Source of the DNA: Cheilinus undulatus | Lineage: Eukaryota > Chordata > Actinopteri > Labriformes > Labridae | Reading direction: 5' to 3' | DNA length: 64,000 nt | NCBI RefSeq assembly: GCF_018320785.1 | Contig: NC_054868.1 | Coordinates: 398,885 to 462,884 of the forward strand | In this document: in pieces, positions 529 through 63,727 of the stretch | How the letters are laid out: each line of letters starts with the position of its first letter | Numbering within the stretch: position 1 is the stretch's first letter | Notes under the pieces: model-generated | The model's input: only the letters and a program-made list of their open reading frames with translations | What the model was told of the DNA's origin: nothing | Databases searched by the model: none | Made by a program: the position numbers and the translations under genes

Positions 529-565
<37 letters not shown>

Positions 566-812
566 ATTTTATTTAAGGGTGCCTTTCCTGACACTCAAGG
601 TCACCTTACAAAAAGTACAAAAAAGTGCATTAAAACTTTTTCTCTCCATATTTAGCCCTCGTCATCCATTTGTGCTGCTTTCTGACAATTTTTCCCACCT
701 TTAACTTATTGTTATTGCTACTTCAAGCTGTTTTTGCCACTTTCCACCACTTAGATTGTGGCTCTTGTCAAGGTATTTTTCGATAATTTGGCTCTTTGGT
801 TCAGTAACACTG
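1..812. mobile_element. T-rich hAT-like non-autonomous element, end A (other end outside window)
   Basis: Most of the stretch is a degenerate tandem repeat built from TTTTTGCCACTTTT, GCCCATTTAAGCTACC and GCCATTAAATACCAC. It closes with a unique tail that includes GATTGTGGCTCTTG and ends in CAGTAACACTG at 812. The same tail ends the complete copy at 61148-62720, which has CAG-type terminal inverted repeats and an 8-bp target duplication. By analogy this copy ends at 812, and 813-820 (AACTAAAG) would be its target duplication; the left end is not in the window. No transposase is visible. An (TAA)n retroposon tail is nested inside. ORFs here are low-complexity artefacts. Assignment to hAT is inference from termini and duplication length. 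Confidence 0.6.
529..625 (-). mobile_element. Retroposon 3' tail fragment with (TAA)n
   Basis: A run of TAA triplets is followed by TACATTTTATTTAAGGG and GACACTCAAGGTCACC. Read on the minus strand this is the familiar tail of vertebrate LINE/SINE elements: a segment resembling a GCGC/TATAAATAAA end, then an (ATT)n run. A second copy lies at 41364-41475. The fragment sits inside the T-rich hAT-like element, so it inserted there or was carried with it. The family is not resolved. Confidence 0.5.
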
Positions 813-14100: not shown

Positions 14101-14876
14101 AAAACTTGACTAAAATGTGAGGACTGTTATGGACTAAAACTAGACTAAAATGTGAGGACTGTTATGGACTAAAACTAGACTAAAATGTGAGGACTGTTAT
14201 GGTCTAAAACTAGACTAAAATGTGAGGACTGTTATGGACTAAAACTGGACTAAAATGTGAGGACTGTTATGGACTAAAACTAGACTAAAATGTGAGGACT
14301 GTTATGGACTAAAACTAGACTAAAATGTGAGGACTGTTATGGACTAAAACTGGACTAAAATGTGAGGACTGTTATGGACTAAAACTAGACTGAAATGTGA
14401 GGACTGTTATGGACTAAAACTAGACTAAAATGTGAGGACTGTTATGGACTAAAACTGGACTAAAATGTGAGGACTGTTATGGACTAAAACTAGACTAAAA
14501 TGTGAGGACTGTTATGGTCTAAAACTAGACTAAAATGTGAGGACTGTTATGGTCTAAAACTAGACTAAAATGTGAGGACTGTTATGGACTAAAACTAGAC
14601 TAAAATGTGAGGACTGTTATGGACTAAAACTAGACTAAAATGTGAGGACTGTTATGGACTAAAACTAGACTAAAATGTGAGGACTGTTATGGTCTAAAAC
14701 TAGACTAAAATGTGAGGACTGTTATGGACTAAAACTAGACTTAAATGTGAGGACTGTTATGGACTAAAACCAGACTAAAATGTGAGGACTGTTATGGTCT
14801 AAAACTAGACTAAAATGTGAGGACTGTTATGGACTAAAACCAGACTAAAATGTGAGGACTGTTATGGACTAAAACT
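5128..14876. repeat. Giant 35-bp minisatellite, about 279 copies, 9.7 kb
   Basis: The unit is GACTAAAACTAGACTAAAAT followed by GTGAGGACTGTTATG. Copies are nearly identical, with recurrent point variants (ATATGAGG, GACTTAAAC, GGTCTAAAAC, ACCAG, CTACAACTAG) and a few 34-bp units (GACTAAACTAG). Variant combinations recur at about 489 bp and about 2.4-2.6 kb, showing higher-order duplication. One unit at 11579-11593 is rearranged into a fold-back. All forward frames are closed. It lies in the presumed 5' intron of the TRIM gene. Copy number is from length divided by period. Confidence 0.97.
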
Positions 14877-15221
14877 TAAAAATGATAGAAATTACTGAAC
14901 TGTCACCAAAACTGAAATGCGTTTCACTTGAAGACTTAAAAACTAAAATAGAGATAGCTGCCAACCTCACAGTGATTTAACATTACAAACATTTGGTAAT
15001 TATTGAAAACTGAAGAGATTTGCTGTTAAGACGGTGGTGTTGGGTTCTGAAGCCGTCCCAGTAGAGAACCACTGTTTTAACATGATTTTAACTTTAAATG
15101 TGGGTAGCAGGAGGACTTAAACTATTGTAAACCAGCCCGTTTTAGTACAGGACCTTTCCCTAACCCTTTAACCCTATAATGAATTAAAGACTTTCTGTAA
15201 CGCTCTGTCTGCTGCTCTCAG

Positions 15222-16829
15222 ATGTCTGCTGCCCGGAGTCTTCTGTCGGAAGATACCTTCCTGTGCCCCGTCTGTCTGGATACCTTCACTGATCCTGTCA
15301 GCACACCTTGTGGTCACAACTTTTGCAAAACCTGCATCAGTGAAAACTGGAACACTAAAGACCAGTACCTGTGTCCACTATGTAAAGAGGACTTTAGCAG
15401 AAAACCCAACCTAAAAGTCAACATGTTGCTCTCTGGGATGGTTGCAGCTCGACTGGAGTCCAGCAGCAGCTCAGAGCACCAAGAGTCTGAACCAGGAGAA
15501 GTTCTCTGTGATGCCTGTACTAGCCCCAAACTGACGGCCCTGAAGTCCTGCATGGACTGCCTGGTCTCCTACTGTGAGGCTCACCTGGAGCCTCACCTGA
15601 CAGCTCCACGGCTGAAAAGACACCAGCTGATGGACCCCGTGGAGAACCTGGAGGACAGGATGTGTACGAAGCATGAGAAACCTCTGGAGCTGTTCTGTCA
15701 GACCGATCAGACCTGCGTCTGCATGCTCTGCTCCGTTCTGGACCACAAGAACCACGAGTTTGTTCCTCTGAAGGACGAATATCGAGAGAAGAAGGCAGAG
15801 CTGGAGGAGAAAGACGCTAAAATCCAGCAGATGATCGATCAAAGACGTCTGAAGATTCAGGAGATTGAGCACTCGGTCCACCTCAGTAAGGACGCTGCAG
15901 ACAGGGAGATCGCAGAAGGTGTTCGAGTCTTCACCGCTCTGAAGGAGTCTGCTGAGAGAGGCCAGGCCGAGCTCATCAACACCATCCAGAAGAAACAGGA
16001 GACTACAGAGAAGCAGGCCGAAGCATTCATCCAGGAGCTGGAGCAGGAAATCTCAGAGCTGATGAAGAGAAGTGCTAAGGTGGAGCAGCTCTCTCGCTCC
16101 AAAGACCACCTCCATCTGATCAGGACCGCCGTATCTCTGAGCAGTACTGTGTCCTCCAGAGACTGGACCAAGGTCACTGTCCCCCCACCTCTTTATGACC
16201 GCACTGTGGTGAAAGCTGTGGCTCAGCTGGAGGAGACTCTCAGAGAGGAGATGAAGAAGTTGGATCAGATTGCATTAAGGAGACTCCAGCAGTACGCCGT
16301 GGATGTAACTCTGGACCCTGATTCTGCACATGCTCAGCTCCTCCTGTCGGATGATGGGAAACAAGTGCGCTATGGTGACCTTAGGAGGGATGTTCCCAGT
16401 AACCCCAAAAGGTTTTCCTCTTCTCCGAGTGTTTTAGGAAACCAGAGTTTCTCCTCAGGTCAGTTTTATTACGAGGTCCAGGTAACAGGAAAGACCGGCT
16501 GGGATTTAGGAGTGGCCCGAGATTTCAGTAAAAGGAAAGGAACGATCACTCTGAGTCCTCAGAGAGGTTTCTGGACTCTGGGCTTGAGAAATGGACATCA
16601 TTATGAAGCTTCTGCTGACCCGATAAATCACCTCCCTCTGGAGTCTCGTCCTGAGAAGATCGGTGTGTTCGTGGACTACGATAAGGGTCTGGTCTCCTTT
16701 TATGACGTGAACGCTGCAGCCCTGATCCACAGCTATAGAGACTGCTCCTTCACGAGGAAGCTCTACCCGTACTTCAGTCCCTGTGGTGGCGGTTCTGATG
16801 AGAACTCTGCACCCATGATCATCTCTTAA
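15222..16829 (+). CDS. TRIM E3 ubiquitin ligase, bloodthirsty-like (RING, B-box, coiled coil, PRY-SPRY)
   Basis: The main coding exon encodes 535 residues. A C3HC4 RING has C15, C18, C30, H32, C35, C38, C51 and C54. A first B-box-like zinc region lies at about 96-134 and a B-box 2 at about 148-183 (CTKHEKPLELFC). A coiled coil spans about 185-300, PRY about 361-408, and SPRY follows to the end with GFWTLGL and GVFVDYDKGLVSFYDV. Such proteins transfer ubiquitin through the RING, oligomerise through the coiled coil and bind targets through PRY-SPRY. The fish bloodthirsty-like group is thought to act in antiviral and inflammatory signalling. The exon starts right at a CTCTCAG acceptor, so a 5' exon is expected; the candidate at 3801-3806 would add two residues. 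The order and near-identity to the gene at 28241 mark a tandem pair. The exact member name cannot be given. Confidence 0.9.
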   Translation: MSAARSLLSEDTFLCPVCLDTFTDPVSTPCGHNFCKTCISENWNTKDQYLCPLCKEDFSRKPNLKVNMLLSGMVAARLESSSSSEHQESEPGEVLCDACTSPKLTALKSCMDCLVSYCEAHLEPHLTAPRLKRHQLMDPVENLEDRMCTKHEKPLELFCQTDQTCVCMLCSVLDHKNHEFVPLKDEYREKKAELEEKDAKIQQMIDQRRLKIQEIEHSVHLSKDAADREIAEGVRVFTALKESAERGQAELINTIQKKQETTEKQAEAFIQELEQEISELMKRSAKVEQLSRSKDHLHLIRTAVSLSSTVSSRDWTKVTVPPPLYDRTVVKAVAQLEETLREEMKKLDQIALRRLQQYAVDVTLDPDSAHAQLLLSDDGKQVRYGDLRRDVPSNPKRFSSSPSVLGNQSFSSGQFYYEVQVTGKTGWDLGVARDFSKRKGTITLSPQRGFWTLGLRNGHHYEASADPINHLPLESRPEKIGVFVDYDKGLVSFYDVNAAALIHSYRDCSFTRKLYPYFSPCGGGSDENSAPMIIS

Positions 16830-23390: not shown

Positions 23391-25000
<1,610 letters not shown>

Positions 25001-28100: not shown

Positions 28101-28240
28101 AAAAGAGGTTTCCTACTAAGCAAACCAAAACCAGGGCTCTGTGGACCATTATATGTGACACTTAAACCTACCCATCTTTATGCCCAATGTGTTGCCTTTT
28201 TTAACCAAAATGTGTGTCTTCTGTCCTCCTCTGTGTAGAT

Positions 28241-29902
28241 ATGGCTGCTGCAAACCCTCATCAGTCTGAGGACCAGTTCCTGTGCTCCATCTGTCTAGAT
28301 GTCTTCACTCATCCTGTCACCATACCATGTGGACACAACTTCTGCAAAACCTGCATCAGTGAACACTGGAACACTAAAGACCAGTACCTGTGTCCACTAT
28401 GTAAGAAGGCCTTTAACACCAAACCTGAGCTGTACGTCAACACGTTCATCTCTGAGATAGTCAGTCAGTTCAGAGACAGAGCTCAGCAGGAGGCCAGCAG
28501 CAGCTCAGAGCAACCAGAGTCTGAACCAGAAGTTCTCTGTGACATCTGTACTGGAACCAAACTGACGGCCCTGAAGTCCTGCATGGACTGCCTGGTCTCC
28601 TACTGTGAGGCTCACCTGGAGCCTCACCTGACAGCTCCACGGCTGAAAAGACACCAGCTGATGGACCCCGTGGAGAACCTGGAGGACAGGATGTGTACGA
28701 AGCATGAGAAACCTCTGGAGCTGTTCTGTCAGACCGATCAGACCTGCGTCTGCATGCTCTGCTCCGTTCTGGACCACGTGACGCACAAGTTTGTTCCTCT
28801 GAAGGATGAATATGAAGGAAAGAAGGCAGAGCTGGAGGAGAAAGACGCTAAAATCCAGCAGATGATCAAGAAAAGACGACTGAAGATTCAGGAGATTGAA
28901 CACTCGGTCCACCTCAGTAAGGACGCTGCAGACAGGGAGATCGCAGAAGGTGTTCGAGTCTTCACCGCTCTGAAGGAGTCTGCTGAGAGAGGCCAGGCCG
29001 AGCTCATCAACACCATCCAGAAGAAACAGGAGACTACAGAGAAGCAGGCCGAAGCATTCATCCAGGAGCTGGAGCAGGAAATCTCAGAGCTGATGAAGAG
29101 AAGTGCTAAGGTGGAGCAGCTCTCTCGCTCCAAAGACCACCTCCATCTGATCCAGAGAGTCCGGTCTCTCAGTTATACTCCTCTCGCCAAGGACTGGACC
29201 AGGGTTAATGTCCGCCAGCCCCTTTATGAGGGGACGGTGGTGGCTCAGCTGAAGGAGACTCTCAGAGCGGAGATGAAGAAGCTAAATGAAATAGAGCTGA
29301 AGAAAATCCAGCAGTATGAAGTGGATGTAACTCTGGACCCTGATACCGCTTATCCTCAGCTCATCCTGTCTAAGGATAGGAAACAAGTCCGCTATGGTGA
29401 TGTTACGAGGAATGTTCCCAAAACCCCCAAAAGATTTTCTTATGTCCCCAGTGTTTTAGGAAAGCAGAGTTTCTCCTCAGGCAGATTTTATTATGAGGTC
29501 CAGGTTAAAGGGAGGACAGAGTGGACTTTAGGAGTGACCAGAGATCTGAGTAAAAGGAAGGGAGAGATCACTCTGAGTCCTCAGAAAGGTTTCTGGACTC
29601 TGGGTTTGACGAAGGGAAATAAGTACGAAGCTCTTGAGGAGGATTCGCTTCTTCTCTCTCTGGAGTCTCATCCTGAGAAGATCGGGGTGTTCGTGGACTA
29701 CGATAAGGGTCTGGTCTCCTTTTATGATGTGGACTCTGCAGCCCTGATCTACAGCTTTAGAGACTGCTCCTTCATGAGGAAGCTCTACCCGTACTTCTGT
29801 TTCGTTGGTTGTGGTGATAGTGATGATGATGATGATAGTGATGATGATGATGATGGTGACTCTGTACCTCTGGTCATCTCTCCTGTCTATGTGAAGTTAT
29901 AA
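28241..29902 (+). CDS. TRIM E3 ubiquitin ligase, bloodthirsty-like, paralogue 2
   Basis: The coding exon encodes 553 residues from the ATG at 28241. That ATG lies two bases after a TCCTCTGTGTAG acceptor and puts the RING cysteines at the same residue numbers as the paralogue (C15 to C54). An ATG at 28214 would lie in the intron. Domain order is RING, B-box-like, B-box 2 (CTKHEKPLELFC), coiled coil and PRY-SPRY (GFWTLGL; GVFVDYDKGLVSFYDV). The B-box and coiled-coil region is nearly identical in DNA to the gene at 15222, while the RING and PRY-SPRY differ clearly. Near the C-terminus a GAT-repeat insertion gives two runs of five aspartates, followed by PLVISPVYVKL. It is probably a ubiquitin ligase in innate immune signalling, inferred from the family. 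Confidence 0.9.
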   Translation: MAAANPHQSEDQFLCSICLDVFTHPVTIPCGHNFCKTCISEHWNTKDQYLCPLCKKAFNTKPELYVNTFISEIVSQFRDRAQQEASSSSEQPESEPEVLCDICTGTKLTALKSCMDCLVSYCEAHLEPHLTAPRLKRHQLMDPVENLEDRMCTKHEKPLELFCQTDQTCVCMLCSVLDHVTHKFVPLKDEYEGKKAELEEKDAKIQQMIKKRRLKIQEIEHSVHLSKDAADREIAEGVRVFTALKESAERGQAELINTIQKKQETTEKQAEAFIQELEQEISELMKRSAKVEQLSRSKDHLHLIQRVRSLSYTPLAKDWTRVNVRQPLYEGTVVAQLKETLRAEMKKLNEIELKKIQQYEVDVTLDPDTAYPQLILSKDRKQVRYGDVTRNVPKTPKRFSYVPSVLGKQSFSSGRFYYEVQVKGRTEWTLGVTRDLSKRKGEITLSPQKGFWTLGLTKGNKYEALEEDSLLLSLESHPEKIGVFVDYDKGLVSFYDVDSAALIYSFRDCSFMRKLYPYFCFVGCGDSDDDDDSDDDDDGDSVPLVISPVYVKL

Positions 29903-33510: not shown

Positions 33511-36500
33511 TTGTATTTAAAGACAACTAACCCCTACCCCCAGGACTCAGTTAAATTAAACATAATTTTTAGGTGTTGTTATCCCAACATGATATGACTA
33601 CAGACACTTGTTCTTGAGAGGGGATCTGTGTATAAACTATCTAATATTATGATCATTTATTAGGGTTACTGGAGGAAAAAAATAGAAAGGTCTGTTTTTG
33701 TTTTACCTCTTAGGCTGGCCCTGTATGTTTTATGATCATGATTGTTTTATTTATATATATTTTATTATATATTATATATATACACACACACTAAGAGTGG
33801 CCCAGGGTTATTTCAGAAATTTATGAAAAAGTAAAGAAGAGCAAAACTTGAATAAAAATATGTCATAACACATGAATATCAGAAGTTTTCCCATAATAAT
33901 TAAAATTTCTGGTACATTTTGATTCACATGCAGTAAATTCAAATGGTAGTTGTTTTCGTAGAACTGTTTCATGAGGCAAAACTAAATGTATTAAAATGGA
34001 AATTCGAATACAATAGACACTCAAAGTGACAACAAAAACAGCTTGAAGTAGCAATAAAAATAAGTTAAAGGCAGAGGTGTCAGAAGTCTTCACCTTCATT
34101 CCTCAGGTAGAAGTATAGATACTAGGGTTTAAAAGACTTCTGTAGAAGTATAGATACTAGGGTTTAAAAGACTTCTGTAGAAGTATAGATACTAGGGTTT
34201 AAAAGACTTCTGTAGAAGTATAGATACTAGGGTTTAAAAGACTTCTGTAGAAGTACAAATTCTAGGGTTTAAAAAGACTTCTGTAGAAGTATAGATACTA
34301 GGGTTTAAAAGACTTCTGTAGAAGTATAGATACTAGGGTTTAAAAGACTTCTGTAGAAGTATAGATACTAGGGTTTAAAAGACTTCTGTAGAAGTATAGA
34401 TACTAGGGTTTAAAAGACTTCAGTAGAAGTATAGATACTAGGGTTTAAAAGACTTCAGTAGAAGTACAGATACTAGAGTGTAAAAGACTTCAGTAGAAGT
34501 ATAGATACTAGGGTTTAAAGACTTCTGTAGAAGTATAGATACTAGGATGTAAAAGACTTTTGTAGAAGTATAGATACTAGGGTTTAAAAGACTTTTGTAG
34601 AAGTATAGATACTAGGGTGTAAAAGACTTCTGTAGAAGTATAGATACTAGGGTTTAAAAAGACTTCTGTAGAAGTATAGATACTAGGGTTTAAAAGACTT
34701 CTGTAGAAGTATAGATACTAGGGTTTAAAAGACTTCTGTAGAAGTATAGATACTAGGGTTTAAAAGACTTCTACAGAAGTATAGATACTAGGGTTTAAAA
34801 GACTTCTGTAGAAGTATAGATACTAGGGTTTAAAAGACTTCTGTAGAAGTATAGATACTAGGGTTTAAAAGACTTCTGTAGAAGTATAGATACTAGGGTT
34901 TAAAAGACTTCTGTAGAAGTATAGATACTAGGGTTTAAAAGACTTCTGTAGAAGTATAGATACTAGGGTTTAAAAGACTTCTGCAGAAGTATAGATACTA
35001 GGGTTTAAAAGACTTCTGTAGAAGTATAGATTCTAGGGTTTAAAAGACTTCTGTTAAAGTATAAATTCTAGGGTTTAAGAAGACTTCTGTAGAAGTATAG
35101 ATACTAGGGTTTAAAAGACTTCTGCAGAAGTACAAATTCTAGGGTTTAAAAGACTTCTGTAGAAGTACAAATTCTAGGGTTTAAAAAGACTTCTGTAGAA
35201 GTATAGATACTAGGGTTTAAAAGACTTCTGTAGAAGTATAGATACTAGGGTTTAAAAGACTTCTGTAGAAGTATAGATACTAGGGTTTAAAGACTTCAGT
35301 AGAAGTATAGATACTAGGGTTTAAAAGACTTCAGTAGAAGTATAAATACTAGGGTTTAAAAAGACTTGAAAAAGTATAGATACTAGGGTTTTAAAGACTT
35401 CTACAGAATTATAGATACTAGGGTTTAAAAAGACTTCTGTAGAAGTATAGATACTAGGGTTTAAAAAGACTTTTGTAGAAGTATAGATACTAGGGTTTAA
35501 AGACTTCTGTAGAAGTATAGATACAAGGGTTTTAAAGACTTCTACAGAAGTATAGATACTAGGGTTTAAAAGACTTCTGTAGAAGTATAGATACTAGGGT
35601 TTAAAGACTTCTGTAGAAGTATAGATACTAGGGTTTAAAAGACTTCTGTAGAAGTATAGATACTAGGGTTTAAAAGACTTCTGTAGAAGTATAGATACTA
35701 GGGTTTAAAAGACTTCTGTAGAAGTATAGATACTAGGGTTTAAAAGACTTCTGTAGAAGTATAGATACTAGGGTTTAAAGACTTCTGTAGAAGTATAGAT
35801 ACTAGGGTTTAAAGACTTCTGTAGAAGTATAGATACTAGGGTTTAAAGACTTCTGTAGAAGTATAGATACTAGGGTTTAAAGACTTCTGTAGAAGTATAG
35901 ATACTAGGGTTTAAAAGACTTCTGTAGAAGTATAGATACTAGGGTTTAAAAGACTTCTGTAGAAGTATAGATACTAGGGTTTAAAAGACTTCTGTAGAAG
36001 TATAGATACTAGGGTTTAAAAGACTTCTGTAGAAGTATAGATACTAGGGTTTAAAAGACTTCTGTAGAAGTATAGATACTAGGGTTTAAAAGACTTCTGC
36101 AGAAGTATAGATACTAGGGTTTAAAAGACTTCTGCAGAAGTATAGATACTAGGGTTTAAAAGACTTCTGTAGAAGTATAGATACTAGGGTTTAAAAGACT
36201 TCTGCAGAAGTATGGATACTAGGGTTTAAAAGACTTCTGTAGAAGTACAAATTCTAGGGTTTAAAAGACTTCTGTTAAAGTATAAATTCTAGGGTTTAAG
36301 AAGACTTCTGTAGAAGTACAAATTCTAGGGTTTAAAAAGACTTCTGTAGAAGTATAGATACTAGGGTTTAAAAAGACTTCTGTAGAAGTATAGATACTAG
36401 GGTTTAAAAGACTTCTGCAGAAGTACAAATTCTAGGGTTTAAAAGACTTCTGTTAAAGTATAAATTCTAGGGTTTAAAAGACTTCTGTAGAAGTACAAAT

Positions 36501-39500
36501 TCTAGGGTTTAAAAAGACTTCTGTAGAAGTATAGATACTAGGGTTTAAAAGACTTCTGCAGAAGTATAGATACTAGGGTTTAAAAGACTTCTGTAGAAGT
36601 ACAAATTCTAGGGTTTAAAAGACTTCTGTTAAAGTATAAATTCTAGGGTTTAAGAAGACTTCTGTAGAAGTACAAATTCTAGGGTTTAAAAGACTTCTGT
36701 AGAAGTATAAATTCTAGGGTTTAAAAGACTTCTGTTAAAGTATAAATTCTAGGGTTTAAGAAGACTTCTGTAGAAGTACAAATTCTAGGGTTTAAAAGAC
36801 TTCTGTAGAAGTATAAATTCTAGGGTTTAAAAGACTTCTGTTAAAGTATAAATTCTAGGGTTTAAGAAGACTTCTGTAGAAGTACAAATTCTAGGGTTTA
36901 AAAGACTTCTGTAGAAGTACAAATTCTAGGGTTTAAAAGACTTCTGTTAAAGTATAAATTCTAGGGTTTAAGAAGACTTCTGTAGAAGTATAGATACTAG
37001 GGTTTAAAAGACTTCTGTAGAAGTATAGATACTAGGGTTTAAACGATGACAAGCCGGAATTAAAACGAGCCATAATAAAACAGGAGCAATGAGGCTAATC
37101 ATAAAATGTAAGGAGTAGAAGTAAAAAGACGGCTGAAAAATAATTACTCCAGTAAAGTATAGATACCCAAAATTTCTTCTGAAGTAAGGTAACAAAGTAT
37201 TTGTCTGGTTAAAGGGGGGGATAATGGTCCAAAAGTGGCAAAAATGTGGTAAAAAAAAAAAAAAAAGAGAGAAAAGTGACTAAAATGGGATAGAAGCACT
37301 CAAGAGTGGCAAACATGAGCAAAAAACAGGAAACAAGTAGTATTTAAGGGCAAAAGTAGCTTAAATGGACAAAAATGGGATAAAAGTGGCTAAAGAAGTT
37401 GCAAAAAGAGAAAACAAGTGGCATTTAATGGCAAAAGGTAGCTTATATGGGTGAAAAGTGGTGAAAAACATGGTGAAAATGGGACAAAAGGGGTACTTAA
37501 TGGCAAAAGTAGCTTAAATGGGCAAAAAGTGCCAAAAAATGTGAAAAAGGGTAAAAATGGGCAAGAAGTAGTGGCAAAAGTGGGCACAAAAGTAGGGAAA
37601 AAGTAGTATTTAATGGTAGAGGAAGCTTATTTGGGTGAAAAGTGGCAGAAAATGGCGAAATGGGATAGCCTAAATGTGGCAAAAATGAGAAAATTATGTC
37701 TGACATTTAAAGCCTTCTGTATCAGTCTGGGAAACAAACAGATTAATGTGGTTAACTTCTGAGGTCGAAGTTTCCCCTTTTAAGGTTTTCTGGGGGAATA
37801 ATATTTAGAATTAAGACTAGAAAGAGCCACAGGTTGAGTATGACTGGTTTAAATCTTTGTATTTATAATTGCCTTATTTAGACAGTCCTATGGTGTTAAT
37901 GCTTTGGCCGTGAGAATAAAATAAATATAACCCTCTTATAAACAAAGAGCCTATCTGTGCTCTGAATAAACATCTGGTGAAATCTGAGCTTTGTTAAACT
38001 AAGTTTAAAGGAGTATTTTAACAACAATGGACAATTTATTCAGAAAAAAAATCCATTTATGTTTTTTCTTTCTGGTCATGTTTCATCCAATATTTTTCTT
38101 TTACATTTTTGTCATTTAGAGCTGGATTTTATTCCACTACAACATGACGAAGTTTAGCTGATATTTCTCACTTGAATGAGTGTTTAAAATGTCAAACAGG
38201 CAGAATCCAGGCCAGTACAGGAGGAGGAGGTAACCTAGCAGTGCTGGGCTCCAGGTTTCTGCCCACCTTTGCCAGATGGTAAAGTCTAATTCTGTCCTGT
38301 ACTTCAGACAAAAAGGCCTCAGGAAAAAAGGCATCAGGATTCAGTCTTCGGTGTTTTTATCAGCCACATTAGCCGCTGTTGTTTACTGTTAAATCTTCAT
38401 CTCTTGTTTCTGTCTCCTTCCAGGCTGAAGAAGGAAACATCGAGTACAAGGTAGCTCACCCTCCATGCTCTGCTGGTTGTTGTTGGTCGCTGCACATGTA
38501 GTTAAGCAGAAAGTAAAAAGTCTATGTTTGTGGCTCTCTGCAGGTTTTTCCTGCTCAGCTTGTCTGCAGGAACTTCTCTGAAGCGCTGGCTTTAAACATT
38601 CTAGATTTAAACTGAGTTTGATCTCTTTTGTCCCCTCTGCTGTTGCCGTAGTTGAAGCTGGTTAATCCCACTCAGTATCGCTTCGAGCACCTGGCCACGC
38701 AGCTGAAATGGCGTCTGCAGGAGGGCCGCGGCGAGGCCGTCTACCAGATCGGAGTGGAGGACAACGGCCTGCTGGTGGGCCTGACCGAGGCGGACATGAG
38801 GGCGTCGCTGAAGACCTTGAAGAGGATGGCAGAGAAGTAGGTCACATGATCAGAACGTACCCCATCTGCTTTCTGAGCTCCGAAGGTCAGAAAAGTGATT
38901 TTTGTTCTGATCATCAGAGTCGGAGCCGACATCACGCTCCTCAGAGAGAGGGAGGTGGACTACGACTCGGACAGAAACACTCGCAAAATTGCTGAAGTCC
39001 TGGTCCGAAAAGTTCCTGATGACCAGCAGGTGAGAGGCCGGTTCGTCCTGATGACTTCCTGTTTCTCTACATCTAATTCTGTAGATGTAGAGAAACAGGA
39101 AGTCATCCCAGGACCCTCAGAGTCTAACTCTACTCTAGTCCACTCAAGTTAGCGTGACATTTCCACCTAAAACGGACCCAAACATTCATTTCACGCTCAT
39201 CCTGCCACTTTCAGTGTCTTTGGTTTGATCGGATTCATTTCTGTAGGACCAAACACGTCTGACAATGGCGTGAGGTGTTCAAAACCACCACATTCTACAT
39301 CATGTTGTCGTTCTCCTGGCTTGTCTAACACCGTATGTTAAAGACGTGTTTGTGTTGGCTTGGGCAGTTCCTGGATCTGCGGGTGGCGGTGCTGGGGAAC
39401 GTGGACTCGGGGAAGTCGACCCTGCTGGGCGTGTTGACGCAGGGCGAGCTGGACAACGGCAGAGGACGAGCTCGACTCAACCTCTTCAGACACCTGCACG

Positions 39501-42500
39501 AGATCCAGACGGGACGGACGTCCAGCATCAGCTTCGAGATCCTCGGCTTCAACAGCAAAGGAGAGGTGAGAGGAAGTGGGAGGGGAAAAACGCCGCAGGA
39601 GTGCCAGAGCAGCGTTCCTCAACCCTGCTCAGACAAAGAGCCAAACCGTTGAAAATTACATTTGCAAGAGCCACAGTCTAAGAGGTGGACATTAGAGGTG
39701 GTCAATTAAAATAAGTTAAAGGTGGCGAGAAAGGGCAGAAAGCAGTAAACACTGGGGAAAAGTGGCAAAAATGAGTGAAAAGTGATTAAAATGGGCAACA
39801 ATCAGAAAAAAAGGTGGCAAAAATGGGCAAAAAGTGGCATGTAGTTGCAAAAGGCAGCTCAAATGGGCGAGGAATGGCAAGTGACTAAAGGGAGTGGCAA
39901 TAATGGGCTTAAAGTAGCAAAAACTGGGAAAAAAATGGGTGGAAAGTGGCAAATGGATGGGGAAGCAACCAAAAAAATTAGTTAAAGGTGGCACTAATGG
40001 TCCCCAAAGTGGCAAAAACATTGCAAAAATGAGTCAAAAGTAACTAAAATGAGCAAAAATCAGAAAAAAAGGGGAAAAATGGGCAAAAAAGGGAATTTAG
40101 TTGCAAAAGGCAGCTTAAATTGGCGAGAAGTGGCAAATAAATGCAAAAAGCAGGATAAAAGTGTCAAAAAGGGGAGAAAAGCGACTAAAGGGAGTGGCAA
40201 AAATGGGCTTAAAGTGTCAAACACTGGAGAAAAGTGGCAAAACAGGGCAGAAATTGGAAAATGGATGAGGAAGTGCCTAAAAAATTAGTTAAAGGTGGCA
40301 ATATTGGTCCCAAAAGTGACAAAAATGTTGCAAAATTGAATGGAAAGGGACTAAAATGGGCAAAAATCAGAAACAAAGGTGGGAAAAATGGGTGAAAAGT
40401 GGGATTCAATACCAAAAGGCAGCTTACATGGGCGAGAACTGGCAAAGAAAATGAAAAATAGGGGCAAGAATTTGCAAAAAGCAGGATAAAAGTGTCAAAA
40501 ATGGGCTGAAAGCAGTAATAAAATAAGTAGCAACAAAAATGCAAATAAGGGCGATGGAAATATGCAGACAACAAATAGAGGTGGACAGTTAAAGCTGCTG
40601 TAGACGTGTGGGAAACAAACTGGTTAATGTGGCTCATTTCTGAGGTCAAAGTTCCTTTTTTAGGGTTTTCTGGGGGAATGATATTTCAGATTTAGACATA
40701 AAAGAGCCACAGGTTGAGTATGACTGTACTAGAGTGATGATGAACGGGGGGCGGTCACATGATCTTAAAGCTTAAATAGAGTGGGGGCGTGGCCTCTTTG
40801 TTGACGGTTTGCTCTGGAACCTGCTGCAGGTGGTGAACTACAGCGAGTCTCGGACAGCGGAGGAGATCTGTGAGAGCTCGTCTAAGATGATCACCTTCAT
40901 CGACCTGGCCGGACACCACAAGTACCTGAAAACGACCATCTTTGGCCTCACTAGCTACTGCCCCGACTTCGCCATGCTGGTGGTGAGCGCCAACACGGGC
41001 ATCGGTGAGCTGCAGAGTCATTCATATGCTTTCAGAGGATAAACAGGTTCATATTTCTGTTTAAAGGTGTTGCATCCCTTCATAAGAAGATCTTTGTTTA
41101 CAAGACCTGAGCATGAATGAAGCTCCTGAAGCTCCTGAAGCTCTTGAAGCTTTCTGATCTCCTAACCAGGGCTGATCAGCTGTAAAAAACAAACTAATGT
41201 TTGTCCTCAGATGTTGGAAAGGAATCTATTCTTAAAAAGGAGTATTCAGAAGTTTTCCTGCATCTTTTATTAACAAATCGAGGAATGAACCGCTCTCAGG
41301 TGTAGACTCGAACGTTCTCAGGTACAGAGGGTACGGTGTTAGAGAGCCTAAGACTTCACAGAGTTAATAATAATGATAATAATGATAATAATAATAATAA
41401 TGATAATAAAATGATATAATAATAATACATTTTTATTTATAAACGCCTTCCTGAACACTCAGGGTCACTTTACAGATGAAAACAAGTTCAGTAGAAACAA
41501 CAGATGAAAGATAACACAGCAGAGTTCTTCATTAGTTTCAGTAAAATCAGAGTTTGATTTTCTGTTTTTATGGCTGCTCTGGTTTCCTGATGTCTGTGAT
41601 GATTAAAGGCTTCAGTTTAGAGCAGGGGTGGTACAGTGACACCATATTTTTGTTATAACTGACCCTAAAATCTGAGGTCTGCAGATTTCCTCCAGTATAA
41701 AAATGTAAACTAAATCTGGATAATTTAAGATATCCTTAAGTCATCAAAATGTGAAAAAAATTAAAGAGTAAAAATAATAAGACAAAAAGAAACATGAAAA
41801 AAGAAATTCATTTGTGTATTCATTTCATATTTTCAATTTTGCATTCCATAATAATGACTTTAATTGATTATTTGTGCTTTTATTTCACATTTTAAACTTT
41901 TACATTTATCATTTTTACTTTTTATCTCGTATTTGAACCTTTTAAACTTATAATTTTGACTTTATCTAATGATTTAAGCTTTTTCAATTTATAATTCAGA
42001 ACTTTTATCTCATATTTTGACTTTGTGAATTTTTTTATTTTCAGTTTTATCTTTTCAATTTATTATTTTGTTTTTTATCTGATATTTTGACATTTTAGTC
42101 GACCCTTTTATCTTGTAAGTCATATCTTTGCCTTTTAAACATGATTGTGACTTTGTTTTTTATGTATTTTAAAGGCATTATTTTAACATCTAATTTTTGT
42201 GTTTTAACCTTTCAGACGTATAAGTTTGACTTTTAATCTCAGATTTTGAGCCTTTTTACTCATCATTTACCATCAGTGCTAGTTTTTTATTACTGGTGAA
42301 AATGAGGTTAACAGTTTGGTTGAATGTGGACCCTGTTAGGCCCTCAGGCTAGACCTGAATCCAGAATCCGGCCCCTGCTGTGTCTGAGTCTGACACCCCT
42401 GGTTTAGAGTTTAAATCCTGAGTAGAAATTCAGTAGAAGACACTGAAACGGCTTCTATAACCACCAGCAGAGGTCAGCAGTGAGCCGTGATCAGATTTAA

Positions 42501-45500
42501 GGTTTTCATGAATAGATTTACTGCTGCTTTATTTTTTATTGGTTCAGCTGCTGTTTGTTTTCTAGAAGTATTAAAAGATCATAATTATGCCCCAAAATAT
42601 TCCCAAACAGCCGTCCCATCCTCTAGAATTCCAAAGACCTGGTTTAGATGTTTTATTCTGCAGCCAGTTTAATTTCAAACCTTAATATGCAAACACAGAT
42701 AAAAGAGTTTGAATAAGAGAATCCATCTGTTTATATGAAGCATCCTTTAAGGCTGATCATCAACAGGTGGTCTGGGGGCCATATCAGGCCCCTTAAAGCT
42801 CCCCCTCGGCCACCAGAAGATGGAAATGTGCAGAGGATGGAAGATTTTGTAGTCTTTGGGGCGGGGGTCAACAAGTACAAGCACAAGGGCCAGATTTAGT
42901 CTGGACAGAGACTCTGGGGGCCGGACTTTCAAATAAACCCAAGTTAAATGAATATTTTGCTCTGATTAATGTTATTGTATGATTATTGTATTGTATTGTA
43001 CACTATTGTAGTAGTATTTGTATTTCCTTTCAAACGCAGACATTTTTAGGCATTAGTGAGATCTAACCCTGCCCCTGGACCCCTGAAAATCCCAGAGAAT
43101 GGGCCCTCCCCCTCTGGGATTAAGCACCAGTATTAACTCTTTTTTTAACCCTCCGTTCACGACTTAATCGTTACTTACAACCATTTCTGCAGCGTTTTTA
43201 CCCTTCCTATTCCATTGTGGTCATTTTTGTCCCTTTTAAACCAACTAACAGTGTGTCGCTGTTAAACTCCTTTATGCAACTTTCCTGACGTTTATTGCCC
43301 GTGTGCCGCTCTTTAACCGCTTTTCACTACTTTGCCAGGATATTTTTACAGCTTTTAACCAATTGTTGATACTTTTTGCCTCTTTCACCTACATTTTTCC
43401 TTTTTTAACCCATTTTAAAACACTTTTCCTACATGTTTTATCCCTTTTGTGCCACTCTTGTACCCATATTTTCCACTTGTCATCTTTTTTTTATCATGTT
43501 TTAACCTCTTTGCATTCCTTTTTTTGCACCATTTTTGCCACTTTAACCCATTTTTGATACAATTTTCTGTCTTTAACCCTATTTTTTCCTTTTTAACCCC
43601 TTTTAAACCACTTTTCCTGCATGTTTTATCCCTTTTGTGCCACTCTTGTATCCATTTTTTCTACTTTTTAATCTATTTTTGTCCCGTTTTATCTCTTTTC
43701 ATTACTTTTTTTGAACCGTTTTTGCCCCTTTAGCCTATTTTTGGTACTCTTTGCCCCTGTTTCCCCTTTTACCATTTTTTGCACACATTTTTCCCTCTTT
43801 TCACCACTTGTCCTGACAGTTTTTGTCCCTTTGTGCCACTTATTTTGCCACTCTCTAATCCCTTTTCATCACTTAATCTGTCATTTTTCCAACATTTCTG
43901 CCAGTCTTAGCCCGTTTTTAGAATATTTACTAACAATGGCTGACAGGTGAGTTTCAGTAAAGCAGATAAAAGTTACATCATTCTGAAACTATTTTAGCAT
44001 TAACTGTTTTTGGGTTGATTTAACAGCTGCAGACATTCAGAGCCAAAAGATCCTCTTAACACCACAGCATCTTCTTTTTCTCCTTCTCTGAGTTCAGAGA
44101 TCTTCTGGGAGCTTTGGGCGGCCTGAGATGGCCCTCGGGCCACCAGTTGATGATCTTTAGTCTTTTACTTCAAGCCTGATCCGTTTCATCAGGTACTTTA
44201 TCAGGAAATCAGGAATCCAGCCCTGATTAAATCTGCAGTTTTCTGTGTCAGCTTTAAGCTTTAAAATGTTTTTTCCTGCCTGAGAATCCAAACAAAAGTC
44301 TGGTTTCCCGCTCCTGTTTTTAACCAATCACAACACAGTGTGCAGTATCAGACCCAGTGGTTTCATAAAATACCTTTGGACAAAAATACAGGTCCTATTA
44401 AAGTTAGACGTTAATTAGAACAGAATGATTTTAAAACCACCAATCAGATTTCTCTTATAAAATTTACTGTTTTTACCATAAAAACCAGGACCAATCAGAG
44501 AGACGGGACAAACAGGTATGCTATAATGTTCCCCTGCAGCGGGCCCAGTGGTTTCTGGGTAATGAAGTCCTTTATCCTGATGTCAGCTTCCTCTCTTCTG
44601 TCCAGCCGGAACGACCAGAGAACACCTGGGTCTGGCCATGGCGCTGAAAGTTCCCATCTTCATCGTGGTCAGTAAAGTGGACCTGTGCTCGCGCGGCACC
44701 GTGGACAGGACGGTCCGTCAGCTGGAGCGGGTCCTGAAGCAACCGGGCTGCAACAAGGTTCCCATGGTGATATCGAACCCCGACGACGCCGTGACGGCCG
44801 CGCAGCAGTTCGCACAGTCTGCATGGTACGCGTGAATACTGAAAATATTATAAATAAGACTGAAAATATTATAAATAAGAATTAAAAATATTGTAAATAA
44901 TACTGAAAATATTATAAATAATACTGAAAATATTATAAATACTACTGAAAATATTATAAATAATACTGAAAATATTATAAATAATACTGAAAATATTATA
45001 AATACTACTGAAAATATTAGAAGTGAAACAGAAAATATTATAAATAATACTGAAAATATTATGAATAAGACTGAAAATATTATAAATAATACTGAAAATA
45101 TTATGAATAAGACTGAAAATATTATAAATAATACTGAAAATATTATAAATAATATTGAAAATGTTATAAATAATACTGAAAATGTTATAAATAATACTGA
45201 AAATATTATAAATAATACTGAAAATGTTATAAATAATACTGAAAATATTAGAAGTGAAACAGAAAATATTATAAATAATACTGAAAATATTATGAATAAG
45301 ACTGAAAATATTATAAATAATACTGAAAATATTATAAATAATACTGAAAATATTATAAATAATACTGAAAATATCATGAATAAGACTGAAAATATTATAA
45401 ATAATACTGAAAATATTATAAATAATACTGAAAATATTATAAATAATACTGAAAATATTATAAATAATACTGAAAATATCATGAATAATACTGAAAATAT

Positions 45501-49800: not shown

Positions 49801-50330
49801 CAGATCCTCACTATTTTTTGCCATTTTATGCAACTTCTTTTTGCCAAATTTTTGCCACTTTTCATCCAAATAAGCTAAATTGTGCCATTAAATACCACTT
49901 GTTTCCTTTTTTCCAAATTTTTGCCTCTTCATTTTGCCACTTTTTTCCCCATTTTTGCCCTTTTTTTCCTGTTTGTAACCCATTTTTTCCCTTTTTCACA
50001 ATTTTTATCCCATTTTTGTCCATTCAAGCTATCTTTTGCCATTAAATACCCATTTTTTGCCCATTTTTGCAACTTCTTTTTGCCACTTTTTGCCAATGTT
50101 TTGCCACTTTTCATCCAAATAAGCTACCTTGTGCCAGTAAATACCACTCATTCCCTTTTATTACAAATTTTTGCCTCTTCATTTTGCCACTTTTTTCTCA
50201 TTTTTGCTACTTTTCCCATTTCCCCCCCACTTTTTGCCCATTTAAGCAACCTTTTACCATTAAATACCACTTGTTTCCTATTGTTCCACTCTTGACTGCT
50301 CCTTGCCCATTTCAGTCACGTTTCACTCAT
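49801..50330. mobile_element. T-rich hAT-like family, fragment E
   Basis: Repeats of TTTTTGCCACTTTT, AAATAAGCTA and GCCATTAAATACCAC match elements A-F. It opens with CAGATCCTCA, close to the CAGTGATCCTCA start of copy F, but the usual tail is absent, so it is a truncated copy. Confidence 0.55.
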
Positions 50331-58600: not shown

Positions 58601-61600
58601 GAAGTCAGGAATGTGGGAAAAGAAACTAATTTGTGTTTTATTTCACATTTTCAATTTTGCATCTCACAATTAGGACTCAAACTCAGGATTTTGAATTTTA
58701 ATTTCAAACTTGAGCATTTAAACTCATAATTTTGACTTCTCATATAATATTTGAGCTTTAAGATGCATAATTTTATTTTTAAGTGATAGTTTGACCTTTT
58801 TAACCAAATTATTTTGTATTTTACTTCATATTTTCAACTCCAAACTTTGACTTCATAATCCCATAGTTTGACCTTTTAGACTCACAATTAAAAACTTTGA
58901 ATCATATTTTGACTTTTAATTTCATTATTACAAATTTTATTTCATATTTTGACCTTTTTGAACTAATAAATTGACTTTTCTCAGATTGTGAGCCTTTAAA
59001 TGGATCTCTTTAACTTTTTAAATATCAAAATTATTTATCATCAGTGCTAAGTTTTTTGTTTTTTCATATTTTATTAACGGTAAAATAAGGCTGACAGTTT
59101 CTGGTTTAAAAGGTGACCCTGTTAGGCCCTCAGGTTAGTCCTGAATCCAGAATCCGGCCCCTGCAGTGACTGAGTTTGACACCCCTGCTTTTCATGGAAT
59201 TTTGGAGAATGTTTTCTAAAATGTCTAGAATTTGCCAAGAAATTTAAGGGGGAATTTACTTCAAAATTTGGAGAATTTATTTAAAATTTTTCAGGAATTT
59301 GCACGGAATTTTGGAGGAAGTTTTTAATGGAATTTTCAGGCTCTATGAGGAATTTTCACTGAAAGATTTGAGGACCACCTAAAGAAATATTTGGGAACTT
59401 TTCATGAGATATTTTATAAGAATTTCCAAATACTTTTTTTAATTATGGAATTTTGGGGTTTTGGAAAGGAAAATCTCCAAGAAATTCCCATTCAATGACA
59501 AGACTGATATTTGAACTTATCAGACCGTATTTATCCCAAATAAGTGGGAGAAAATCAAAATGCACTCCAAACAAAGGCGCAGGTCTCAGGAGGTTAAGAT
59601 GATAAAAACTACGTATCCCAGAATCCACTGGGATTCATCTATTCATTGTTAATCATTGCTTTTCAAGCTTTCAAACCACATAGTAGTGATTTTATTTTAA
59701 ATAATGTTATAATATCCTAGTTTGAGCATTGTGACATCATTGTGTCGTCATCAGTGATCAACAGGTGGTGATGGTAGACACTGTGACACTCTGGGATTGT
59801 GGGTAATGTAGTATTTTTGGCTTTTATGGTGTATAATCTTTGTTTTTCTGTGATATCTTTCAGCATAGACCAGCGTTCTACTCTCAGGTAGCTCGCTGTC
59901 AGTCTACGATATTCCTGATCCTATGGCTGACAGTCAGACCTGCTCTGGAGGACCTGAATGTGGTTTTACGTCCAGAACCAGACTGTGGAGCTCTAGAAAG
60001 TATCGGAGAATCACCTCTGCGGGTTAGTGTGCCCTGGCCGCCCGGCTGGTAGCCCTTCCCTGGCGTGGCCTGCTGGGTGTACATGGAGTAGATGAACGAT
60101 GCCGTCAGAGTCTGCGGCTTCTGAAGCACGGGGGGCGGAGCCTCAGAGAGCTCGGGGGTGTAGGGGCGAACGGCGGCGGCCGGCGGGCTCTCCTGTTTGT
60201 GGGGGAGGGGGAGGGTGCTGCTGTGGGTGAAGAGGACGCCCGCCGATGCCCTGGAGAGGTGACCGCCGACTTGGCGAGCTTTACCGGGGAAGGTTCCGGT
60301 GCTGTAGGCGGGCTTTGAGAAGTTGGGAGGGCTGGAGGAGGAGAAAGGCTTGGGTTTGGAGGGAAGTGGGGGTGGAGCCGCCATCTTTGATTGACCTTTA
60401 GTCGCCTGAAGAGAAATACAGAGTGATTTCAGAGGTGAGAGGCAGTTCTTTGGGTTTAATAAGGATAAAGTTTGTTTGTGACTGAGCTGTGAGACTCCTG
60501 TGATACCTGGCTGTCTCTGAGCAGGTTATCAGTGCTGTGATTGGTCCGTGAGGGGACAGGAGGCGGGATGTCCGACCCAGAGAGGCCCTTCTGATCGGAG
60601 AGGTTTTTACCACCTACAGGAGAAGAAATGATCAGAATTAAACTTCCTTTTCTTCTCCATGGGGTTTCAGGAATAAAAGATCTACTCAGGATTATTAGTA
60701 ACAGAATTTCAGATCATTTTCCCGCTTCTTTAGGTCGTTAAAACTCATTTATTTCATCAGAGGCTGTAAAATCAGTCAACAACACTCTAGGGAAAGTAAT
60801 GTTGTTTCTATTTCTCTAACTGAACCAAAGACTGGTGGGCGGAGCGGCCATACTGTTTGCTAAGATAAGGTCACATGTTTCAGACTGACCTGAGCTGTGA
60901 GCGGACGTGCGAGGCAGCGTGGACGAGTGGCTGAAACCGCCGCCAGATTCAGACGATGAGCCGCTCCACTCTGACACTTTGGTGATTTTTGTCGTGGCAA
61001 AACCTGCAGAGAGTGAAAAAACAGGTCTAATAAAATAGTCAGGGTACAAGCTCCTGGGAGGAAAACCTAAAAACTCAGGTCCACTGTTGGCAAAATGGAG
61101 CCCAACATCCCCAGCTTCACCAACATCTGCCTGTAAGGCCTTTAGAACAGTGATCCTCAGTGTGTGGCTCTAAAGCCTTTTTGGAACTAAATGCCACTTT
61201 TTGCCAATTTTCCACCTTTTTTCTGATTTTTGCCCATTTTAGTCACTTTTCACTCATTTTTAGACACTAGAGGACCATCTTTGCCACCTGTAACTCTTTT
61301 TTTTTTACAACTTCTCACCCATTTTTGCCATTTTCTGCCCTTTTTTGCCACTTTTTCTCCCCATTTTTCCCCTTTTTTCCCAGTGTTTGCCCCTTTTTGC
61401 CTCTTCTTGCCCATGAAAGCTGCCTTTTGCAATTAAATGCCACTTTTTGCCATTTTCTGAAGCGTTGTTCAGATTTTTGCCACTTTTCCCTCAGTGTTTG
61501 CCACTTCCAGACCATTTAAGCTGCCTTTTGCAATTAAATGCCACTTTTTACCCATTTCTCCACATTTTTTCATATTTTTGTCAATTTCTCCAACTTTGTT

Positions 61601-63727
61601 CAGATTTTTGCCACTTTTCACAATTTTTTGCCACCTTTAACTTATTTTTTGGTCCCTCCCCCCCCATTCTTGACATATTCTGCCCTTTGTTGCTACTTTT
61701 CTCCCAGTGTTTGCTGCTTTTTGACCATCTTTCTCACCTGTAATTCTTTTTTTTGGTCACTTTTCATTATGCACCCATTTTTGCCACTTTCTGCACTTTT
61801 TTTCCACTTTTGCTCCCAAATTTTTTCCCTCAGTGTTTGACCCTTTTGCCTTTTTTTGCTTCCTCTTTCCCATTTAAGCTGTCTTTTGCAATTAACTGCC
61901 ACTTTTTGCCCATTTTTCCCATATTTTTCTAGATTTTTGTCGATTTTCCCCACATTTTTTCAGAATTTTGCTGATTGTCCCCATATTTTTTCAGATTTTT
62001 GTCAATTTCTCCACATTTGTTCAGATTTTTGCCACTTTCTGCACTTTTTTTCCACTTTTGCTCCCAAATTTTTTCCCTCAGTGTTTGACCCTTTTGCCTT
62101 TTTTTGCTTCCTCTTTCCCATTTAAGCTGTCTTTTGCAATTAACTGCCACTTTTTGCCCATTTTTCCCACATTTCTTCAGATTTTTGTCGATTTTTCCTA
62201 CATTTTTCCAGATTTTTGCCAATTTTCCCCACATTTTTCTAGATTTTTGTCGATTTTCCCTACATTTTTTCAGAATTTTGCCGATTGTCCCCACATTTTT
62301 TCAGATTTTTGCCAATTTTCCCCATATTTTTTCAGATTTTTGTCATATTTTCCTACATTTTTTCAGATTTTTCCCACATTTTGTCAGATTTTTCCCACAA
62401 TTTTCAGATTTTTGTCTATTTCTCAAACTTTTTTTCAGATTTTTGCCACTTTTTCACAATTTTTTACCACCTATAACTCATTTTTGGTCCCTTCCCCCCC
62501 ATTCTTGACATAGTTTGCCCCTTGTGGCTACTTTTCTCCCAGTGTTTGCTGCTTTTTGACCATCTTTGCCACCTGTAACTCATTTTTTTGTCACTTTCCA
62601 CCCATTTTTGCCACTTTCTGCCCTAACTTTAACTGATTTTATTGCCACTTTTTACCACTTAGATTGTGGCTCTTGCAAATTTATTTTTTAACAATTTTGC
62701 TCTTCGGCTGAGTAACACTGCTTTAGAATCTAAAACATCTCTAACGGGGCTAGATCCTGCCTGTTTCCTCTGAAGGTTATCTACATGTAGCATAAACATG
62801 CTACCTGAATGTCAGAGGCAGACATGGACCTCTTACTGGTCTGCCTAAACTGGTCTATGAGCTGTGGAGTCTAGGGATAGAAATCCAGTCATTTCTTTGA
62901 CCAGTACCTGCTGCTGGTTTTACTGGTCGCGGAGGCGGTTTCAGGGCCGAGTCTGGCATGGGGAGGGTGGCGGTGCCGTCTGGGTACGCCGGCTTCACCA
63001 GAGCTTCCTGTCGAGCCGGCACAGGAGGCCCCTGAGAGCTGGTAGTGGAGGACGACTGGATGTAGGGCCCCACCGCTGCCACTCTGGAGCCCCCGCAGTG
63101 CTGAGGGGCCACGCCGTCTGAACTCACCTGCAGGGACGGAAGTAAAGCTGAGTAAGGAGAAAAACCGGCTGATAGAAAGTTAGCTTTGCACCGACCGTCT
63201 CCATGCTTACCGGCACGTTCTCCTTCTGCTGCAGGGCCGCCTTCTTCTTCCAGAGCCGCTGTCGGAGCTCGGCCAGCCGTCGGTCCATGGCGGCCACTTC
63301 CAGGTTCCTCTTGTTCAGACTGTCTCTCTGCTGCTGCAGCCGGCCGCTCTGGTCCTGGTTCAGCTTGTTCCTTAGCTACGAGGTCAGAGATGGAGCTCAG
63401 TGAAAACAAGGAGGCTAGTACTGAAACGCTACAGTGACCTGCCGTGACTAGCTAGTCAGGCTTAGCTCGCTAATAAACCAGGCACCAGGAGGACCTGGCT
63501 CTGGTTTTATGTCTGAGCTCTCACCTGCAGCTCCTTATAAAGGCGCTCCAGCTCGGCGGTGGAGGAGGTGGTGTGGTGGTAAAGAGTTGAATTAGGGAAA
63601 GGAAGCTCAAATCTGTTGCTCCTCAGCGCCTCCAGCTGGTCGCTGAGCTCCTCCACCCTGGACACGGCCACCAGCAGCTCTCTCTGCTTCTGCTGGAACA
63701 GTCCGGTCATCTGCTCGATCTCCTCCA
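52667..63727 (-). CDS. tp53bp2: TP53BP2/ASPP2, C-terminal 868 residues (12 exons; N-terminus outside window)
   Basis: Exons, N- to C-terminal: 63727-63525, 63375-63211, 63127-62908, 61003-60890, 60613-60507, 60405-60015, 57664-56937, 56752-56615, 56381-56248, 53603-53437, 53288-53089, 52708-52667. Junctions are GT-AG and in frame. The protein runs from a coiled coil ([14 protein letters not shown]) through [31 protein letters not shown], a proline-rich block ([11 protein letters not shown]), the PP1-binding RVKF, ankyrin repeats ([31 protein letters not shown]), SH3 ([15 protein letters not shown]) and [17 protein letters not shown]2 stimulates p53 at apoptotic promoters, targets PP1 and supports PAR3-dependent cell polarity. 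[13 protein letters not shown] and [16 protein letters not shown] favour ASPP2 over ASPP1. Human ASPP2 has about 1130 residues, so some 260 are missing with the upstream exons. The donor of exon 60015 (GTGATT) is weak. The teleost a/b copy is unresolved. Confidence 0.93.
53783..56154. repeat. C-rich minisatellite of about 33 bp filling a tp53bp2 intron
   Basis: The unit is TTATAATACCCCTCCTCCAC followed by CCCAGCCCCTCCG or CCA, 31-35 bp, more diverged than the other arrays, with TCCACATCCCCAG and CTCCCTGCC sub-variants and larger duplicated blocks (for example 53783-54060 resembles 54060-54340). It occupies about 2.4 of the 2.6 kb between exons 53603 and 56248. Both strands show long open frames (Glu-Gly-Leu-Gly-Trp-Arg-Arg repeats), which are artefacts. 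Confidence 0.95.
56813..56918. mobile_element. Small MITE in a tp53bp2 intron
   Basis: TATGGAGGCATTACTGTCGC at the left and, in reverse, TATGGAGTCAGTGTTGTCGC at the right are inverted ends related to the MITE at 47112-47267. It is about 106 bp and fills more than half of the 184-bp intron, ending 18 bases from the donor side of exon 57664-56937. Confidence 0.6.
57665..58015. other. tp53bp2 intron, right of the MITE insertion site
   Basis: Unique AT-rich intron sequence with a TTTAACC junction at the right where the piggyBac-like element begins (TTAA 58012-58015). No exon or RNA gene seen. Confidence 0.4.
58016..59593. mobile_element. piggyBac-like MITE with TTAA flanks, containing a nested element
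   Basis: Flanking TTAA occurs at 58012-58015 and 59594-59597. The left end CCTCCTCAGACCCTGCGTCC and right end (reverse: CCTCCTGAGACCTGCGCCTT) form inverted repeats. TTAA duplication with a CC-starting terminus is typical of piggyBac. The interior is GGAATTTT-rich degenerate repeat without ORF. Subtracting the nested hAT-like insertion leaves about 770 bp. It lies in a tp53bp2 intron. Confidence 0.7.
58384..59187. mobile_element. hAT-like element nested in the piggyBac-like MITE
   Basis: The left end CACAGGTGTCAAACTCAAGG and right end (reverse: CAGGGGTGTCAAACTCAGTC) are inverted. Both ends continue into GGGGCC-AATCCGGCCC-type sequence. It belongs to the same family as 41623-42401, sharing GTTAGGCCCTCAGG and ATCCAGAATCCGGCCCC near the right end. 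An 8-bp duplication is not clear (CTTTAGGA versus CTTTTCAT). No ORF. Confidence 0.7.
59598..60014. other. tp53bp2 intron, unique part
   Basis: No repeat termini or ORF with support. It ends at the weak donor of the exon at 60015-60405. Confidence 0.35.
61148..62720. mobile_element. T-rich hAT-like element, complete copy F, 1573 bp, perfect 8-bp target duplication
   Basis: It starts CAGTGATCCTCAGTGTGTGG and ends CTGAGTAACACTG (reverse: CAGTGTTACTCAG). CTTTAGAA flanks it on both sides (61140-61147 and 62721-62728), an exact 8-bp duplication. The interior is degenerate TTTTTGCCACTTTT, CAGATTTTTGCC and AATTAAATGCCACTTT repeats, including an exact internal duplication of about 130 bp (61791 and 62039). 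No transposase frame; the open frames are Phe/Leu-rich artefacts. It sits in a tp53bp2 intron and defines the ends of the family seen at 1, 37220, 39610 and 49801. Confidence 0.85.

Follow-up and report, generated by a model that had tools for sequence, protein, structure and literature searches.

Does a 1.6-kb tract of degenerate, T-rich repeat at positions 61148–62720 of the window (the whole 64,000-nucleotide stretch of Cheilinus undulatus DNA analyzed here) belong to the simple repeats, or does it move as a unit between defined ends? Our analysis leads us to regard the tract, which we call copy F, as a member of a non-autonomous hAT family that is abundant in the genome, the probability being about 0.93.

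Borders and structure of copy F

Copy F has hAT-type ends and lies on the plus strand between identical 8-bp duplicates, CTTTAGAA, at 61140–61147 and 62721–62728 (8/8 matches). Its ends, CAGTGATCCTCA and CAGTGTTACTCA, begin with CAG and match in inverted orientation at 10 of 12 positions. In one border search the element scored 14, while the best of 150 random placements scored 11; the four highest null scores all fell within tandem arrays, and chance borders were rejected on this basis. When 300 bp on each side of F were compared, 6 of 85,849 octamer pairs were identical, one of them lying exactly at the ends. The perfect target duplication and inverted CAGTG termini of the initial annotation are thus both confirmed.

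The element is of a short-5′ form, in which a 5′ tip of ~29 bp that includes GTGGCTCT directly abuts the body. The quasi-satellite body (61177–62640, plus strand) bears the recurrent anchor AAGCTGCCTTTTGCAATTAAATGCCACTT, and is followed by the 3′ end region (62641–62720, plus strand), matching copy A (below) at 82.9% over 82 bp. The 1.5-kb body is, as had been proposed, a degenerate T-rich repeat; it contains internal duplications, among them a 248-bp tandem duplication at 61777–62282 with 92% matches. By eye, the open frames within F are read-throughs of the repeat. Around it are minus-strand frames that seem to belong to a gene with an SH3 end matching ASPP/53BP2 proteins; F probably sits in an intron of this apparent gene.

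Other copies in the window and a nested element

Four further copies had been described as sharing body or ends with F, and this holds in part. Copy A (1–812, plus strand) has its 3′ end at 812, with flank AACTAAAG, and its left part lies outside the window. It is broken near 530–612 by a (TAA)n-tailed repeat, whose end, again next to (TAA)n, is found a second time at 41364–41474. Copy D (39610–40726, minus strand) is of a long-5′ form and has both ends, with a 6/8 duplication TGCCAGAG / TACTAGAG; on either side are exon-like sequences, which may be GTPBP1/2-like. Copy B has its 5′ part at 37216–37846 on the minus strand, with the 5′ tip at 37846. It is a family member but was wrongly taken to end near 37220, as it resumes beyond a nested element (34072–37207), in a stretch put provisionally, as to its left limit, at 34033–34071 (minus strand); no 3′ tip of B was found there. 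Copy E (49801–50330, plus strand) shares the body only, and the border search found no border there. Copies A, B, D, E and F each contain a 29-bp anchor word (≤11 mismatches) four to six times, compared with 0–0.13 per shuffled sequence, and is absent from a tract at 43.1–43.9 kb.

The nested 3.1-kb element in copy B has CAG..CTG tips and is flanked by perfect 8-bp duplicates, GTTAAAGG, at 34064–34071 and 37208–37215. Most of it is a 35-bp minisatellite (34107–37043). With the insert removed, the joined flanks of copy B align with A, D and F at seven sites, the alignments running across the junction. The tips match at only 5 of 12 positions, and the element is therefore hAT-like by virtue of its CAG/CTG tips and 8-bp duplication rather than of a good inverted repeat.

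Several other features of the window were noted. The tract at 43110–43920 is unbordered and T-rich, with family-like composition and A-tracts phased near 10.3 bp; it was rejected as a family member since both anchor and ends are absent. Many long minisatellite arrays lie between 1052 and 56153, the largest having a 35-bp unit in ~279 copies (5129–14876). Borders were sought at the other long arrays and rejected, the nested element alone being convincing. There is also a Tc1/Sleeping Beauty-type transposase frame at 23696–24607, and two TRIM-type genes (15201–16829 and 28205–29902; RING, B-box, coiled coil, PRY/SPRY) with stretches that are closely alike.

The family across the genome

How general are these borders? 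In the 1.17-Gb host assembly the 26-bp 5′ end gives 2578 matches and the short 3′ end 1697 (each with ≤2 mismatches), while the reversed-pattern controls give none. With the first 153 bases of F as query there were 1229 first-look candidates, of which 40 were scored, yielding 53 matches. From these a sample of 40 loci was assembled, consisting of F and 39 matched loci, all selected by similarity to F; L048 was excluded because it added no new match, and L002–L008 duplicate loci that are represented by a longer version. A pair of ends encloses the body in 13 of the 40, a single kind of end is present in 22 and neither in five. Thus 27 loci are without one or both recognizable ends at the threshold used; seven of these are members of a composite described below, mostly with a shorter 5′ tip. 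The expectation that most copies carry CAG termini is borne out by the thousands of ends, but by only 13 of 40 loci as complete pairs. There are two forms of the 3′ end, one short and one 10 bp longer, and the 5′ end likewise has long and short forms.

The flanking octamers are identical in at least 6 of 8 positions in 8 of the 13 pairs, against a null of 233/25,297 (0.92%); six pairs reach at least 7/8 and two 8/8. The remaining five (L019, L038, L039, L044 and L045) have only 3–5 matches, so that the predicted duplications are found in most pairs but not all. Perhaps some of the five have mis-set ends, and that of L038 was probably set 10 bp short. Beyond the 13 there are extra pairs in L016 (7/8), L021 on the plus strand (8/8) and L037 (7/8). 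The eight pairs with at least 6/8 duplication have element lengths of 601–1573 bp. One exact-to-exact end pair, of 644 bp, was found on C4 from coordinates only, with 2 of the 26 3′ places listed for C4 excluded. The flank octamers are TA-centered at 21 of 22 5′ ends and 20 of 30 3′ ends, against a TA background of 7.4% in the window. The Buster group of hAT elements has the target nnnTAnnn, and by its TA-centered target the F family is presumably Buster-like.

Paralogous empty sites were sought by joining the flanks of 14 records and aligning them to the sampled loci. Spanning relatives were found for six records, corresponding to three insertions; for the other eight, F included, these loci contained none. 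The ancestor of the composite has empty sites in L044 and L036, with alignments that run through the junction. An empty site for L011 is found in L026, again aligned through the junction, while its L018 relative is gapped at the site. The empty relatives of the L016 insertion, L010 and L046, are weaker, the alignment having small indels.

These data bear on the possibility that the tract is an ordinary satellite or simple repeat lying by chance between CAG-like words. Borderless tracts of this kind do exist, as seen in copy E, in five of the 40 loci and in the tract at 43.1–43.9 kb. Yet the border score of F exceeds every random placement, ends number thousands against none in the controls, and both duplications and empty sites recur; we consider this explanation to have almost nothing left to recommend it. 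Paired ends, duplications and paralogous empty sites together uphold the proposal of a T-rich, hAT-like, repeat-bodied family that moves as a unit. The family has the 8-bp duplication and CAG inverted ends of the hAT superfamily, and like MITEs it is short, non-coding, defined by its ends and present in high copy number.

In a wider scan, 4 of 41 arrays had CAG..CTG borders with a duplication, compared with 15 of 820 in the null. One of these (L037) belongs to the F family, and two are taken as chance. The fourth, L040, is another hAT-like element (5252–5935 of that locus); its ends are CAGGGGTGTCAAACTC, its flanking octamers agree at 7/8 positions and it encloses an 83-bp tandem repeat. The family end patterns had no matches in viral contigs, and none was found in phage records.

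A composite element and change in array length

Seven loci (L009, L018, L022, L023, L026, L030 and L041) have flanks in common on one or both sides. In this composite an F-family element lies at the same place within an outer hAT-like element, with ends like CAGGGGYGTAGC. L018 (AGCTCAGT) and L023 (ACCGGACC) have a perfect outer duplication and L022 has none (4/8); we could not place the left end of the outer element in L009, L026, L030 or L041. The inner element measures ~288, 372, 591, 697, 742 and 868 bp, with one to four anchors, in six of the loci; L026 has lost the inner 5′ end, and the left-flank match is poor in L009 and L041. The simplest reading is that the composite derives from one insertion that was spread by the outer element, the array length changing later. 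Since these siblings have kept their borders while the body ranges from ~288 to 868 bp, the array changes length in place.

On the preferred reading of a non-autonomous hAT family, a transposase encoded elsewhere would cut at the CAG ends and reinsert the whole element. Transposition would need the ends alone, and for that reason arrays of any length could travel. The body may lengthen or shorten by slippage, unequal exchange or imperfect gap repair following excision. Some copies are also carried inside another hAT-like element.

Repeat units and helical phasing of the body

Successive anchors are 191–365 bp apart in 38 of 51 cases. The body units are 59–64% alike on average, with few in each copy, and the copies are dispersed; they do not form the long, homogeneous head-to-tail arrays of a satellite. 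The nearest relative of a monomer lies in the same copy in 11 of 26 cases; when labels were shuffled 5000 times, this value was reached 68 times. The T-rich strand of 14 bordered copies, 10 of them end-paired and four composite, has a T content of 0.35–0.47 and a C content of 0.23–0.27, and is thus pyrimidine-biased.

The A-runs are spaced by ~10.3 bp. Their local coherence in 13 copies is 0.724, compared with 0.604 (sd 0.015) for interval-shuffled sequences, and none of 100 shuffles reaches the observed value; L021 on the minus strand (phase ratio 1.8) was left out of this set. The copies share ancestry and so do not amount to 13 independent tests; the phasing could go back to a single ancestral unit. 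Phasing is weak in copies A and B of the window, whose values are reached in 2 and 6 of 200 shuffles, and the non-family tract at 43.1–43.9 kb and a 21-bp array are likewise phased.

Could the body have a function in transposition? It might be an expanded array of subterminal transposase sites, helically phased and docking a multimeric hAT transposase. In the short-5′ copies the subterminal zone required by hAT elements would then be the repeat itself, and by eye the tip preceding the body is only ~15–55 bp in F, L025 and the composite. The sequence AAGTGGC occurs 1–15 times per copy and not in the flanks in the same 14 bordered copies, where AAGT is found 12–34 times on the A-rich strand against 0–5 on the opposite strand. 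Within the body of F there are 13 AAGTGGC, compared with 0.34 expected from shuffles, and the A-run coherence at 10.3 bp is in keeping with such an array. According to PMC10368747, the BED domains of Hermes read AAGT, GTGGC having been proposed earlier; Hermes needs ~220 bp of both ends, and with a scrambled left end there was little or no movement. The same paper indicates that Hermes needs AT-rich DNA directly after AAGT, where the family has GGC, and that ~70% of activity was kept when the left-end sites were mutated. Moreover, enrichment of its own words is expected of any tandem repeat, and the non-family tract and 21-bp array are phased as well. We therefore think a docking function unlikely. 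A more elaborate version, in which the quasi-satellite is a self-expanding phased docking array that replaces the subterminal region, its growth tuning mobility and distal recombination feeding that growth, is a little less likely again.

The phased A-tracts might instead serve the host or its chromatin, as putative curved DNA or in intron anti-silencing, the transposon being a mere carrier. The phasing lies near the helical repeat, and F and D are located in gene regions. However, non-family arrays are also phased, the coherence may have come down from a single ancestral unit through repeated copying, and copies A and B and the minus strand of L021 are only weakly phased. We regard a host role as improbable, more so than either form of docking.

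Chromosomal distribution and source of transposase

The family is concentrated toward the ends of contigs. Of the 39 relatives of F, 33 are no more than 5 Mb away from the end of a contig, where 20% would be expected. Among the matches listed, the same is true for 59 of 72 exact 5′ ends (expected 18%; from the first 100 exact places listed, with 28 on C4 and C9 left out) and for 66 of 74 exact 3′ ends (expected 17%; from the first 100, with 26 on C4 left out), counting contigs of known length. For hAT transposase domains the figure is 36 of 101, again counting contigs of known length and so leaving out 49 of 150 places. The concentration may reflect a preference in insertion, selective retention or a higher rate of recombination. 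These 150 Dimer_Tnp_hAT places were scored out of 765 candidates in the genome. Comparing them by eye with the family ends, we found no autonomous element with such ends among the matches listed, where none of the 150 is linked to a family end and the closest of the listed exact ends is 11.6 kb away from a listed domain place, on C7.

Relationship to known elements

In CAG ends, 8-bp duplication and high copy number the F family resembles the non-autonomous hAT elements and MITEs, with a TA-centered target like that of Buster-like members and no coding seen. It differs from hAT MITEs in having a body of variable length that is almost wholly degenerate tandem repeat. hAT groups are treated in PMC3942097 and coral MITEs described in PMC2872659. 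According to PMC9659126, MITEs and Helitrons can carry or seed satellites, and miDNA4 of Xenopus tropicalis and the Xmix/Xstir MITEs carry and spread tandem repeats as the F family does. There miDNA4 is listed as Tc1-mariner and Xmix/Xstir under another superfamily or none, in contrast to the hAT-like F family, and their satellite motif lies within the MITE or at the TIR, whereas here it is the body itself. The Helitron DINEs (PMC9659126) and the foldback element Tetris of Drosophila virilis (PMC4079207) also have internal tandem repeats, central in the DINEs, but both differ in their ends, and the DINEs in mechanism. In Tol2 and Hermes, as here, short words recur many times internal to the tips of the hAT ends; there they lie in the terminal few hundred bases (PMC10368747), while in the F family they occur throughout. 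Nematode introns bear periodic clusters of A/T with a period of ~10 bp, resembling the F family in A-tract period and intronic location; these clusters are not known as a transposon.

The claim that a transposon made of quasi-satellite is unusual thus needs qualifying: the nearly all-repeat body supports it, but the repeat-carrying elements in PMC9659126 are precedents. Tandem-repeat-carrying MITEs are known; what is new is the nearly all-repeat body, the phasing and the scale. We found no report of a comparable hAT element, from fish or bearing a satellite, in the literature covered, which took in little of the subscription journals and repeat databases, and the end and body words of the family had no match in the full texts searched. 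The family may well be already catalogued in those databases or in the subscription literature.

The repeat tract F is a transposon copy with fixed ends, and DNA that would usually be dismissed as simple repeat is therefore mobile. Masking of simple repeats could hide thousands of such tracts, which would then be overlooked as transposons. The composite provides a rare natural experiment, in which a single insertion has been copied and its array length has since diverged. With the distal concentration and helical phasing of the family, a link between transposon, minisatellite and distal recombination becomes directly testable.
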